A stretch of 64,000 bases of DNA from Pyrenophora tritici-repentis (lineage: Eukaryota; Ascomycota; Dothideomycetes; Pleosporales; Pleosporaceae): the NCBI RefSeq assembly GCF_003171515.1, contig NC_089390.1, positions 1,798,001 to 1,862,000 of the forward strand, written 5' to 3'. A model generated the notes under the pieces. The model was given only the letters and a program-made list of their open reading frames with translations, was not told the origin of the DNA and searched no databases. Both the position numbers and the translations under genes were made by a program. Positions 52,948 to 61,469 of the stretch are shown here, piece after piece. The stretch's first letter is position 1. The number at the start of each line of letters is the position of its first letter.

Positions 52948-55900
52948 CAGACTTTCCAACAAGCAAGTAAAGCAAGTCACCGCTCTAAACTTGACTTGCT
53001 TGGTTCAAACATAGGCTTTACTTGACTTGCTTGGGGTGATTTTTTTACTTGCTTGACTTGCTTGTATTACTTGCAAGTACTTGGATTACTTGACTACTAC
53101 AAAGAGATTAAGCTACATACAAATTACCAAAACTCAGTGTTCCACTCTAGTATGTTGTAATCTCCTACAAGCTGCTCATCTGAAAGCTTAGCCTCGCTAC
53201 AGTTGTACGGTTTATAACCAGCTCGCACCCATGACCTTACTAATTGAAGAGCTGCGAGTAGCTCACTGCCCAGAGCACGTCGTTTAGGTTCAAGAAGGTC
53301 GCCAAGCTCACTGAAGAGGCGCTCACAGTCGCTGCTTGATGCTGGGATAGTCATGATATCGATTGCAAACTGCGCTAAATGCGGGTATTTCGGCAGTAGT
53401 TGTATCCAGTATTGGACAGGATTTCCATCTGCGTTGTACTGCTCCTGCGTCCACTGCGGCTCTTGTGTTTTCCAGCGCTCAAACTCGTCAAGTGGAGCCT
53501 CTCGGTCATTGTTGCGGCTAAGTATAGCAATAATTGCCTCGTCTATGTTGTTGCTACTCGGCGCAGTTGTATACCGCTGGCGTGCTCGTTGAGGTTTGTA
53601 TGCCGCCCAAAGCTGTTGGAACGACGCGTTGGCACTAGTAAGCCAATCAGCTTTGTCTGCCCACGCCACATCGCAGTAGTTCTTGTAGTACGGGTGTAGG
53701 CAAACAGCGGCGTAGTAAGCGGGCGAGTCGTCGAGCTTGTTGTAGTAGTCGTTGGCTTTGCTCCACGCGGCGCGGAGGTTGACGTTGAGGTGATCCTCTG
53801 GAGCCTCGGCATGAGCGTTGAAGTCGACGTGCTCGAACGGGCGCGCCCGGGCCTCAAGCTTGCTGAGTACGTACTCAAAAACGGGTATAACCTCATAGAT
53901 TGCGCCGTATTTGCCATCCTTAGAGCGTCCCTCGAGGCGTTTTGTGGCGTACTTGAGCGGCTCTAAGCAGTCCTGGTACTCTGCAATCACCGCCCAGTCA
54001 GCAGCTCGGAGCCCAGTTGATCTCATCCAGTTTGGGGCGTCGGGCCGCTTATTATTCCGCTGCGCAGCGTGCGCATCTTCAAGGATAACCCTATTGATAT
54101 GATGCTCAGCGTACAAGTTATACGCGGCTTGAAGCTTGGTAGCGCGCTCAAAAGCAGCATAGTATGAGTTCCAGCGAGTGACGACAGGCTTGACTGGCTC
54201 GAGTACTTTGAGACGCCCTTCAGCAGGCAGGTTGTTGTTGGCAAGGCGCTGGTAGCCACGAAAAAGCTCGTACTGTTGCGGCGTTTTGATATAGTTGATG
54301 ACGTCAACTAGCACTCCAATAGGGCCATCTTTCCGCCACTCTCGCATATACTGCTCCTCGGTATTGTACTGCTCTTGAGTGTTGCCGTAGGCGTCTTTGT
54401 TGGTGCCAAATATAATAGCCTGGCCGATGAGGTTAAGCGTGTGACAACTGCAGCGGAGGCGCCGGTGAGCGGACTCAAATTCGTACTCGCGCGCGAGCGC
54501 GGCGATCGCAGTGTCGTTGTTGGTAGCGTTGTCGAGTACAAAATAGCCTAATCGGTCGCTTGTTATTCCGTATGCTGAGAGCGTCGTCGAGATAGCTTTG
54601 GCAATAGCCTCACCGGTGTGGGCGCCAGCGAGCTCAGGCAGATCGATTGGTAAGTCTCGTATTATTCCAGCTGCGTCGGCAAAGTGAGCGACTACTCCAA
54701 AGAAGCCACGTTTACCACCCTTTGTTGTCCAGCCATCAAAGCTTACGTGTATTTTGCTTACTGAGCCTGACAGGGTGTCGATAACTTGCGGTCGTATAGA
54801 CCGGAACAACCTCATCACAAAGGTAGAAACGCTGGTATTACTTACCCACAACGCTGCCTCTGCCTCTGGGTTGGCAAATCTCATCATCTCTCTAAAATCA
54901 GGCGTCGTAAGTTCGCTGAGCGGGTGGTTTCGGTTAACAAGCCACATGACAGTGGCTGTTCGAAAGCCCTCTACGTCGAAGTTTCCAAACGCGTTAGCAG
55001 TGTTTTGTTGTACGTCTAAACCAGCGTCAAAAGCTTGCCGCAACGACAGCTGGCCTCGAGCTCTCTGCGCTAACTTTGGGCCATCTTTCGTAAGGTTGTG
55101 GCCAGGCTTTGGTTGGCTGAGATGGGTGGCTGCTGAGGTTGTAGCCTGAGTAATGTTAAACAAACCACCACGGCCAGCGTCGATAGTTTTGTGTACATGG
55201 CAGTACTTGCACACAAACCAGATTCGAGATGTAGCATGGCGCTCAACAACGCGGTAGCCATACTGAAAGATCCAACTTTTTGGGCGCTTAGAACGCGCCA
55301 ATGGCTTGATAAAATCAGGTAAACGTGCCCAGTCAATGCCGTCAAAGTTCTCAACTAGTGCGCTGTTTGTCTCATCCTGACCACCCTCTCCAGCCTCAGT
55401 TGTAGCCACCGTGCCAGCTCGGCTGCCCTCGGTGGGCGCGACAATCTCAGCCTCCGCCTGCGACTCTAAGAACTGCAACTCGAAGGTAGGTATTGGCGGC
55501 GAGGCGTTAGCCTGGCTTGCGGCAGCTAGGGTTTTGCGAGGTGATCGACGCTGAGGTCTAGGCTTAGATGCAGGCTTAGATGCAGGCTCAGGTGAAGCCT
55601 CAGGAGTTGAGGCGACGTTGTTGGTGGCAGCGGCTACTTTCGTACGTTTGCTCCGAGCAGAAGTTTGTGGTAGGCGACGTTTGGCCATATTGGGGGTATC
55701 AGGGCAGTATAAATCACTGGAAAACGCGTTGCTATAGGGGATACTGCATTGCGATAGGCTTCTAGACAGGCGTACGTCGAGATTGGAGCAATGCGCTAGA
55801 CTAAGGCTAACGTTATTTGATAGCCGCTTAGCCTGTTTGGGACTCAACCGAGGCAACTGCAACACTTCAAAACCATCGCGACATCTACCGTACAGCAGTT

Positions 55901-56079
55901 TTAGCACCCTCATCACAGTAACGCTAAAACAACCAAGTAAACCAAGTAAGCCAAGCAAGCAAAGTATCTTGACTTGACTTGCTTGCTTAGCTGCCCAGCT
56001 CTTACTTGACTTGCTTGCTTGGTTTAAACCAAGCAAGTCAAGCAAGTAATCCAAGTCAACTTGCTTTTTGGAAAGTCTG
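52948..56079 (-). mobile_element. Complete hAT DNA transposon, 3132 bp
   Basis: Bounded by terminal inverted repeats starting CAGACTTTCCAA (20 of 21 bases match between ends) and an exact 8-bp duplication GTATTAGG at 52940-52947 and 56080-56087. Both subterminal regions (about 52960-53090 and 55930-56070) are packed with ACTTG/CTTG-based motifs in both orientations, typical hAT transposase binding arrays. The internal transposase frame is intact. The element sits between gankyrin and the Zn2Cys6 gene. Boundaries are seen directly; activity is inferred. Confidence 0.96.
53124..55688 (-). CDS. hAT-family transposase with C-terminal dimerisation domain
   Basis: Single exon of 854 residues from the ATG at 55688 (MAKRRLPQTSARSKRTKVAA); the frame is open upstream through the subterminal repeats, but that part is not protein-like. 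A basic, Pro/Ala-rich N-terminus is followed by a zinc-finger-like region 'WFVCKYCHVHKTIDAG' (BED-type candidate), the RNase-H-like core ('IHVSFDGWTTKGGKRGFFGV', 'YFVLDNATNNDTAIAALARE', 'HRRLRCSCHTLNLIGQAI'), and the hATC motif 'YPHLAQFAIDIMTIPASSSD' then 'CERLFSELGDLLEPKRRALG'. All conserved blocks are present with no stop, so the enzyme may be functional. Confidence 0.95.
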   Translation of the reverse strand: MAKRRLPQTSARSKRTKVAAATNNVASTPEASPEPASKPASKPRPQRRSPRKTLAAASQANASPPIPTFELQFLESQAEAEIVAPTEGSRAGTVATTEAGEGGQDETNSALVENFDGIDWARLPDFIKPLARSKRPKSWIFQYGYRVVERHATSRIWFVCKYCHVHKTIDAGRGGLFNITQATTSAATHLSQPKPGHNLTKDGPKLAQRARGQLSLRQAFDAGLDVQQNTANAFGNFDVEGFRTATVMWLVNRNHPLSELTTPDFREMMRFANPEAEAALWVSNTSVSTFVMRLFRSIRPQVIDTLSGSVSKIHVSFDGWTTKGGKRGFFGVVAHFADAAGIIRDLPIDLPELAGAHTGEAIAKAISTTLSAYGITSDRLGYFVLDNATNNDTAIAALAREYEFESAHRRLRCSCHTLNLIGQAIIFGTNKDAYGNTQEQYNTEEQYMREWRKDGPIGVLVDVINYIKTPQQYELFRGYQRLANNNLPAEGRLKVLEPVKPVVTRWNSYYAAFERATKLQAAYNLYAEHHINRVILEDAHAAQRNNKRPDAPNWMRSTGLRAADWAVIAEYQDCLEPLKYATKRLEGRSKDGKYGAIYEVIPVFEYVLSKLEARARPFEHVDFNAHAEAPEDHLNVNLRAAWSKANDYYNKLDDSPAYYAAVCLHPYYKNYCDVAWADKADWLTSANASFQQLWAAYKPQRARQRYTTAPSSNNIDEAIIAILSRNNDREAPLDEFERWKTQEPQWTQEQYNADGNPVQYWIQLLPKYPHLAQFAIDIMTIPASSSDCERLFSELGDLLEPKRRALGSELLAALQLVRSWVRAGYKPYNCSEAKLSDEQLVGDYNILEWNTEFW

Positions 56080-60341: not shown

Positions 60342-61207
60342 ATGTCTTCGTCTCTCTCATATGGTTACCGGTTCATGGAGCTGGTGAAGAAATCAGCCTT
60401 GCCTTTTGGCAAAAAATCCTTTTCTTGTTGTTCTTTGCGGTATTCCTTTTCGTTCGCCCGCCTTCTTGTCGCTCGACGGATGGTGTTTAGGCGCTTTTAC
60501 CTTTGTTATCTTTATCGCCGGTGTGTAGTCTCCCGTTGTGGTTTTAGATTGACTCCGCCTGGTGTATTTGTTAATACGCTGTCAAGGCCTTTTCCGTTGA
60601 GTTTGGTGAGCGCTTTCGTGCTGAAGCCTCCGAGATAGTCTCCTTATATATATCTGTTCATCCATGACTCCCTTGCAATGACTGTGACGTTTTTCGTGAC
60701 TCATTTTTGCCACCCGTGAGTGTTTGATGCATATGACTGGTAACGACCCCCCCTTGTGAGTCATACGTTGTTGGTCATGTCGACCTGAGACCAATCATTC
60801 ATTATTGCAATGACGCGCAGGCCCCTCTAGATAACAAATACTCCCGGCCACCCTTACATGATATTGTTGATGTTGGATGCTACTCGCCTGAAGCTGTGCT
60901 GTTGGTGTTGGCTCAACGCTGGGAAAGGCCTGCGCTGTGAGGCAAATTGAGAGCCCGCTCCCTGTATCTGCAGATTCGAGCTAGCCAACGTGTTCTAGCG
61001 CATGTGCAAATTGTTGGAAATGCTGTGCATATGTATGCGCATGTGATTCTTGCAGTAACGATCGCTGGTCCCGCTATGGGTGGGGCGTCTGAACCAAGGT
61101 TCACCGAATACCCAGCGGTTCTGCCACTTCCCTCCGACTTTCTAAATATCATAGTGCTACTCTATATATACACTACTATTGTTAATTACTTCTATAAAGC
61201 AATCAAT
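60342..61207. other. Intergenic region between CPC1 and tRNA-Leu
   Basis: About 0.9 kb. It has a TGACTCA at 60697-60703, 3' of CPC1 and of unclear meaning, and otherwise nothing I can name. Confidence 0.45.
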
Positions 61208-61357
61208 GGACAGATGGCCGAGTGGTCTAAGGCGCTGCGTTTAGGTTCGTTCTAAACATCCTCCGCAGTCTTCACGGGCGTGGGTGTAAGTTTACTCAAT
61301 CCTGGCGAATTTCAATCACAATACTAATATCCACACAGTCGAATCCCACTCTGTTCA
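61208..61357 (+). tRNA. tRNA-Leu (anticodon UAG) with two introns
   Basis: Exons 61208-61245, 61263-61285 and 61339-61357 join to an 80-nt class II tRNA including A73. Acceptor stem GGACAGA pairs with TCTGTTC (one G-U). D stem GCC/GGC. Anticodon stem CTGCG/CGCAG, loop TTTAGGC with anticodon TAG at 61242-61244. Long variable arm. T stem GTGGG/CCCAC. Intron 1 (61246-61262, 17 nt) follows base 37 as usual, and its CTAAA can pair with the anticodon loop TTTAG. A second insertion (61286-61338) lies between T54 and U55. The A box TGGCCGAGTGG is intact but the B box is split. A T7 run follows 21 nt downstream. Whether the gene is expressed is unknown; a pseudogene is possible though all stems are kept. 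Confidence 0.9.
61286..61338 (+). other. Spliceosomal-type intron inside the T-loop of tRNA-Leu
   Basis: 53 nt starting GTAAGT, with TACTAAT at 61322-61328, ending CACAG. Donor, branch site, branch-to-acceptor distance and length all match the protein-gene introns of this window. Exact removal restores the T-loop TTCGAAT. It interrupts the internal Pol III B box. Confidence 0.8.
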
Positions 61358-61378
61358 ACGCTTTAATAGCCCGATTTC

Positions 61379-61385
61379 TTTTTTT
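61379..61385 (+). terminator. Pol III T-run after tRNA-Leu
   Basis: Seven T residues, preceded by TTTC, starting 22 nt after the discriminator base. This is a normal Pol III stop signal and argues that the locus was, or is, a Pol III gene. Confidence 0.75.
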
Positions 61386-61449
61386 GCCCTTTGCTGGAAA
61401 TTGAGGTATTTTCTTTTTGCTTCGTGGTGGGGCGAAGGGAATTAGCGAG

Positions 61450-61469
61450 TGCCCCGCCACAGCGGGGCA
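61450..61469. repeat. Perfect GC-rich hairpin (8-bp stem, CACA loop)
   Basis: TGCCCCGC and GCGGGGCA flank CACA, in the 420-bp gap between the tRNA and the next gene. Role unknown. Confidence 0.65.

Follow-up and report, generated by a model that had tools for sequence, protein, structure and literature searches.

Putative spliceosomal introns in the T-arm of nuclear tRNA genes of Pyrenophora tritici-repentis

Textbook accounts assign tRNA introns solely to the tRNA-splicing endonuclease (TSEN) and link spliceosomal introns to transcripts of RNA polymerase (Pol) II, U6 and rDNA being treated as odd cases. Some archaeal noncanonical tRNA introns lie in the T-arm, and fungal nuclear rDNA carries spliceosomal introns. 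The rDNA case resembles the one described here in that mRNA-type introns lie in a non-coding RNA gene; it differs in that the genes encode rRNA rather than tRNA and that no second, tRNA-type splicing machine is known to take part. A further parallel is the U6 snRNA of Schizosaccharomyces pombe, which is transcribed by Pol III and whose gene contains an intron of the mRNA type (PMC10484740). The title of Frendewey 1990, cited in that source (PMC10484740), places a B-box match inside the U6 intron. The likeness is that a spliceosomal intron interrupts the gene of a small RNA made by Pol III. However, U6 is itself an RNA of the spliceosome and its intron is thought to derive from reverse splicing, whereas the present case comprises at least 11 tRNA genes, nine of which also contain a TSEN-type intron.

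In Cyanidioschyzon merolae, according to the available part of PMC9602550, a T-arm intron at 53/54 accompanies an anticodon intron, some tRNA genes contain three introns, and the anticodon intron is removed after those of the D- and T-arms, the mechanism for ectopic introns being otherwise little known. These introns have been discussed in connection with bulge-helix-bulge processing, and spliceosomal signals are unmentioned in the available part of that source (PMC3978253). The same source describes ectopic tRNA introns in another eukaryotic genome, the nucleomorph of Guillardia theta, many of which lack a defined bulge-helix-bulge and for which its available part likewise mentions no spliceosomal signals (PMC3978253). 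Archaeal noncanonical tRNA introns also lie outside the usual anticodon-loop site but, as the available part of PMC8450103 describes them, are found by their bulge-helix-bulge, pairing for which does not exceed that of shuffles at the Pyrenophora T-arm junctions. tRNAscan-SE 2.0 handles noncanonical introns for archaea, and no word beginning with 'spliceosom-' occurs in the available main text of its description (PMC8450103). Canonical eukaryotic TSEN introns are present in the anticodon loop of 9/11 genes described here and also need removal, whereas the T-arm inserts differ from them in position, length, motifs and putative enzyme. Among the matches listed in a literature search, the scope of which left out the bulk of subscription papers and bioRxiv preprints, none reported a nuclear tRNA gene with a spliceosomal intron in its title or the start of its abstract. 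U6 already provides an example of a spliceosomal intron in an RNA made by Pol III, but among tRNA introns this kind would be novel.

We analyzed a 64,000-nucleotide stretch of P. tritici-repentis DNA (hereafter the window), which contains a tRNA-Leu(UAG) gene on its forward strand. The first exon (61208-61245; positions 1-37, with anticodon TAG, as given by ARAGORN after insert removal) includes the A box (~61215-61225) and is followed by a 17-nt intron of the canonical TSEN type at 37/38 in the anticodon loop (61246-61262; ARAGORN i(40,17)). The second exon (61263-61285) extends from position 38 to T54 and includes the T-stem 5' strand GTGGG. It is separated from the third exon by a 53-nt insert at T54/T55 that resembles a U2-type spliceosomal intron (61286-61338), and the third exon (61339-61357) runs from T55 to the discriminator A73, with TCGAATCC forming the downstream portion of the B box that the insert splits. 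Downstream, a run of seven T residues read from the sequence (61379-61385) is a likely Pol III terminator, and ~38 nt upstream TATATATA (61163-61170) was picked out by eye as a possible TFIIIB site; by eye, upstream sites of this type are not common to all of the interrupted genes described below.

A sequence-only reading of this locus had described 53 extra bases between positions 54 and 55, which was confirmed to the base; they start with GTAAGT, contain TACTAAT at 61322-61328 and end in ACAG. It had also described a 17-nt intron at 37/38, which ARAGORN placed at 61246-61262. Its claim that exact removal restores a fully paired tRNA was upheld by ARAGORN and by a count of pairs in the acceptor, anticodon and T stems, with an 80-nt tRNA-Leu(UAG) remaining once the 53-nt insert and the 17-nt anticodon intron are excised. 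The ends of the insert cannot be slid, since T54 differs from its last base and T55 from its first. The 17-nt intron is TSEN-like in its 37/38 position and in a possible 6-bp pairing with the anticodon loop (counted without a shuffle control). A cmscan search of 61100-61450 at E up to 10 returned tRNA only, with no catalytic group I or group II core in the 53-nt insert. ARAGORN recognized the window tRNA only with the 53-nt insert taken out. In a 351-base search, the Rfam tRNA model matched 61208-61357 at 29.4 bits (cut-off 29), treating the 53-nt insert as an unmatched T-loop, and the gene was not listed when the same model was used to search the whole window.

The sequence-only reading, to which the rest of the genome was not available, treated this locus as a single case. 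Whole-genome pattern scans (40.9 Mb in 41 contigs) identified 11 tRNA genes with a GT-AG insert of 51-68 nt in the T-arm, such that at least ten more tRNA genes of the same genome share the arrangement. The 11 genes represent six amino-acid classes and are located on seven contigs. Besides the window Leu(UAG) gene (61208-61357, forward strand, insert at 54/55), they comprise two Leu(AAG) genes (C8:1749966, denoted L102, and C9:1196804), Leu(UAA) (C6:2126482, minus strand), Gly(CCC) (C9:737016, minus strand), two Pro(UGG) genes (C2:1481863 and C2:1489734, both minus strand), two Ala(AGC) genes (C1:4413478, and C4:2291085 on the minus strand), Lys(CUU) (C7:1290065) and Arg(CCG) (C9:865578). The two Pro(UGG) genes, which are ~8 kb apart, contain three introns each, namely a GT-AG insert at 34/35, a TSEN-type intron at 37/38 and a GT-AG insert in the T-loop, and would probably need two splicing machines. 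The total of GT-AG inserts is 13 (11 in T-arms and two at 34/35 in the Pro genes), and a TSEN-type anticodon-loop intron is also present in nine of the 11 genes. One or two repeated bases permit sliding of the inserts at 52/53, 53/54 and 34/35, for which the positions quoted assume GT-AG. The count of 11 genes is a lower bound, because three T-arm positions only were scanned, with TCRA or TTCRA loops; the introns at 34/35 were met by chance.

With the full architecture specified, the 54/55 pattern gave 12 genome matches, five of which are tRNA genes (reversed-pattern control, six matches), and the 52/53 and 53/54 pattern gave five matches, all of them tRNA genes (control, three). When the branch point was left free, six of the nine matches at 54/55 (control, eight) and five of the 16 at 52/53 and 53/54 (control, 19) were interrupted tRNA genes, which added one gene to the set. 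When the 5' splice-site letters after GT were left free at 54/55, six of eight matches were tRNA genes (control, two) and no gene was added. Matches left out as not being insert-bearing tRNA genes numbered 7/12, 0/5, 3/9, 11/16 and 2/8, respectively, some of those from the motif-free scans being discarded by eye from the matched letters alone. One of the 11 discarded at 52/53 and 53/54 lies in a mitochondrial tRNA gene without an insert. Among the matches of all scans that fall outside tRNA genes, two (L094 and L099) resemble, by eye, ordinary coding-gene introns with the same motifs. No match to the architecture was found in one viral and one prokaryotic contig. At nine loci, ARAGORN reported no tRNA (eight loci) or the wrong one (one locus) before insert removal and recognized the tRNA after it, and a tRNA-model search of the genome listed no interrupted gene among the 63 scored of 1172 candidates. 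Genes of this kind can thus escape annotation of the tRNA set.

Also present in the genome are dispersed, near-identical tRNA-like sequences of 84-99 nt that carry GGGGGGATGGCGCAGTGGTA and a B box (L035, L045, L082, L083, L086-L088, L091, L092 and others). These are probably tRNA-derived repeats of the SINE type; they recur in the B-box scan and among the tRNA-model matches and stand outside the counts given here.

All 13 inserts, which are 51-68 nt long, contain a fungal-type 5' splice site, a CTAAY branch point and a YAG end. Their 5' starts are GTAAGT, GTAAGA, GTGAGT, GTATGT or GTACGT (12 of the form GTRNGT and one GTAAGA), their 3' ends are CAG or TAG, and the branch-point A lies 10-18 nt from the 3' end in all 13, such that the spacings of the predicted splice signals match those usual for fungal introns. 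As background, 0.20% of 8864 GT..AG segments of 51-68 nt from the window, which may include real introns, pass all three motif tests. The motif evidence is not only circular, because GTAAGT and CTAAY recur with those letters left free: 6/6 tRNA matches still read GTAAGT when the 5' splice site was free, and with the branch point free, CTAAY was still present in 11/11, at 10-18 nt from the 3' end. We also excised 868 motif-bearing segments from the window and the fetched loci, a number in which loci overlap and several are present more than once. All excisions that made a junction-spanning tRNA fall at the described loci, recovering nine of the 11 genes, whereas equal-length excisions at random places made a tRNA in 0/868 cases. 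The two Pro genes were missed because of their extra introns, and for Leu(UAA) and Arg(CCG) the test was passed by more than one choice of insert ends.

Removal of the inserts yields a tRNA of the expected isotype for 11/11 genes (two ARAGORN runs combined), Gly(CCC) being read as Gly(tcc) if its anticodon intron is left in. Across the 11 genes, 182 of 187 pairs in the acceptor, anticodon and T stems are standard; the five nonstandard pairs are all in the Lys gene and arise from one extra 3' base, and the acceptor and T stems of this gene are fully paired when this is corrected. The Pro paralogues differ at 9/72 bases, six of which form three compensatory acceptor-stem changes. Interrupted and intact Ala(AGC) differ at four bases, all accounted for by two compensatory changes, and the pair affected by one of these belongs to the T stem and spans the insert.

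The exons of Leu(AAG) L102 on C8 are identical to those of two intact genes on C1 over 98/98 nt, a span that includes the anticodon intron of 16 nt. The 3' flank of L102 also closely resembles that of one intact copy, so that this genome holds both an occupied and an empty version of one tRNA gene site. Within the interrupted Leu(AAG) pair and the Ala pair, mature exons are identical and splice motifs are kept, while intron interiors differ. Identity of intron interiors, as measured with a gap-tolerant aligner and hard to read, is near the shuffled level for the Leu(AAG) introns and the Pro introns at 34/35. By the same aligner, and with the same difficulty of reading, identity in the 5' part is 0.86 versus 0.69 shuffled for the Ala introns and 0.84 versus 0.70 for the Pro T-arm introns, so that interior drift is less marked in these two. 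An introner-like element would be expected to have many near-identical copies; at the DNA level, two inserts were each found once in the genome, namely that of Leu(UAG) in a search at E up to 0.001 and that of Leu(UAA) in one at E up to 10. The resemblance between the inserts of Leu(UAA) and Arg(CCG) exceeds that of 200/200 shuffles (z ~6; the best of 54 non-Ala pairs), hinting at a shared origin.

The T-arm inserts are located at the 5' edge of the B box, which lies whole (GGTTCGANNCC) downstream of the insert in the 52/53 class; in the 53/54 class it is reduced and reads AGTTCGATTCC; and in the 54/55 class it is reduced further, with the core TCRANNCC kept, the window gene having 7/10 consensus letters left. 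Inserts at 54/55 thereby damage the 5' edge of the B box and may lower transcription. The spacing from A box to B box varies widely in yeast genes, and displacement of the B box by 51-68 bp should therefore be tolerated by TFIIIC. By eye, the A boxes of the interrupted genes are kept. A run of at least five T residues begins 3-42 nt downstream in 11/11 genes, and ATCAA occurs within 70 nt upstream of 8/11 as well as of both intact Leu(AAG) genes (by eye, without a control). A spare B box inside the inserts, as in the S. pombe U6 intron, was considered and rejected, the set as a whole not being significant (P about 0.09); individual inserts are suggestive, such as a Pro insert with CGTTCGAATCT. 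Runs of four T residues are absent from all 13 inserts (P 0.001 by single-base shuffles and 0.024 by dinucleotide shuffles). This is no clear Pol III signal and was not used as proof, because intron-like segments of the window rarely have such a run either (1/23). The Arg(CCG) gene has one inside its anticodon intron.

We also searched the genome for other copies of the interrupted genes. A leucine A-box and anticodon pattern matched eight genome places (control, 0), comprising Leu(UAG), a 56-nt fragment of it, four Leu(AAG), one Leu(CAG) and one Leu(UAA). The A-box pattern without the anticodon matched 30 places (control, 17), namely the same eight and 22 others, of which the one inspected in full, a candidate Leu gene (L112, C4:460086), proved not to be a tRNA and 21 were set aside by eye from the matched letters. 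These scans revealed no other full Leu(UAG) gene. For Leu(UAA), the A-box patterns gave no further gene and a DNA search at E up to 10 returned the self-match only; in both cases, a gene with an unusual A box could escape. The 56-nt exact copy of Leu(UAG) (C1:1869307-1869362, minus strand) lies ~10 kb beyond the window gene with unrelated flanks; running from position 6 through the anticodon stem and including the anticodon intron, it is a fragment and not a gene. Leucine A-box patterns found no Leu(CAA) gene genome-wide; this gene might be interrupted as well, or its A box might depart from the usual form. The gene search is thus incomplete, and a Leu(UAA) copy could be missed.

By wobble rules, UUA needs a UAA anticodon, whereas CUA and CUG could be read by Leu(AAG) and Leu(CAG), such that Leu(UAG) is less critical. 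UUA is used once among the 415 codons, stop included, of the CPC1 gene neighboring the window tRNA gene, which encodes a bZIP protein that matches P. tritici-repentis cross-pathway control protein 1 with 100% identity along the query. Uninterrupted copies are present for Leu(AAG), Ala(AGC) and Lys(CUU), the interrupted versions of which could therefore be dispensable.

As the sequence-only reading proposed, a spliceosomal intron in a nuclear tRNA gene is the best explanation of the window locus. On the sequence evidence, we consider it highly probable that the window gene is a working Pol III tRNA gene interrupted by a spliceosomal intron of the U2 type, and that its 53-nt insert belongs to a set of at least 13 introns of this kind spread over 11 genes; a working tRNA would probably need both splicing systems. 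It is likely, with a little less assurance, that spliceosomal introns have colonized nuclear tRNA genes of several isotypes, for the most part at the B box's 5' edge, and that some indispensable tRNAs, including the only reader of UUA found, depend on two unrelated splicing machines acting on one Pol III transcript.

The interrupted genes might instead be dead or dying copies with intron-like insertions, their tRNAs being supplied by intact genes elsewhere, as the existence of intact Leu(AAG), Ala(AGC) and Lys(CUU) genes and of the 56-nt Leu(UAG) fragment 10 kb away would allow. We regard this as quite unlikely, given that stems pair in 11/11 genes, that interrupted genes show compensatory stem changes, and that splice motifs are kept between paralogues with differing introns. 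For the window gene, a dead copy with intact copies elsewhere had been raised at the outset, and it is disfavored by the genome scans, which could miss genes with an unusual A box and in which the 56-nt fragment alone and no other full Leu(UAG) gene, nor a second Leu(UAA) gene, was found. Spliceosomal removal from an RNA made by Pol II or by read-through from a neighbor, rather than by Pol III, is unlikely. Spliceosomal splicing is normally coupled to Pol II, and the 5' edge of the B box is broken in the 54/55 class; however, A-box sequences are kept (by eye), T-run terminators follow 11/11 genes, ATCAA precedes 8/11 and both intact Leu(AAG) genes (by eye, without a control), and U6, in the available part of PMC10484740, provides the precedent of a Pol III-made RNA with an mRNA-type intron.

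Removal of the inserts by the tRNA-splicing endonuclease or another tRNA-specific enzyme would correspond to what is supposed for ectopic tRNA introns in the red alga C. merolae and in a cryptomonad nucleomorph, and has a parallel in the 53/54 T-arm intron of C. merolae tRNA-Ile(UAU) described in the available part of PMC9602550. Pairing for a bulge-helix-bulge at the T-arm junctions of the present genes does not exceed that of shuffles (38 of 110 possible pairs versus a shuffle mean of 40.9); the Leu(AAG) gene L104 alone forms 4/4 central pairs, with 1/6 flanking ones, whereas pairing with the loop is possible over 3-6 bases for the nine anticodon introns tested (counted without shuffles). 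Lack of a bulge-helix-bulge does not by itself exclude such an enzyme, because many ectopic introns of the G. theta nucleomorph lack a defined one, as described in the available part of PMC3978253. However, the spliceosomal signals are complete in 13/13 inserts, and we judge this alternative to be highly improbable. An assembly or sequencing artefact, in favor of which nothing was found, has a negligible probability, since eleven separate loci on seven contigs share one architecture with different insert sequences.

Spliceosomal introns in Pol III tRNA genes thus being the preferred reading, we infer from the B-box remnants, the tolerated spacing and the T runs at 11/11 genes an order of Pol III transcription, spliceosomal splicing, T-loop folding and TSEN cleavage. 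Pol III would transcribe the whole gene from the A box and from a B box 3' of the insert, either whole or as the core TCRANNCC, which the insert would have displaced by 51-68 bp from the A box. The T-arm insert would keep the pre-tRNA from closing its T-loop until excised by the spliceosome, which would restore the loop, and TSEN would then remove the 37/38 intron, where present, to yield the mature tRNA. This TSEN-last order has a likeness in C. merolae, where the anticodon intron is likewise removed last according to the available part of PMC9602550. More tentatively, the introns may have arisen by reverse splicing or from an intron-carrying element near the B box, with tRNA genes later duplicating together with their introns and exact gain or loss taking place between copies, as the occupied and empty Leu(AAG) pair would suggest. 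If these tRNA genes do carry spliceosomal introns, the spliceosome would routinely handle Pol III pre-tRNAs and tRNA supply would be coupled to splicing. The genome would also offer a natural system for intron gain, with occupied and empty sites side by side, and for the tolerance of Pol III promoters.

Three further features of the analyzed sequence were observed. On the minus strand of the window, 5281-5361 matches part of the Ascomycota telomerase RNA model (RF02462) at 43.7 bits, and 53124-56054 contains an open frame of 976 amino acids that has, by eye, the look of a hAT-type transposase. A long hairpin at C1:1866049-1866182 gave microRNA-model matches below cut-offs and is possibly a small inverted-repeat transposon.
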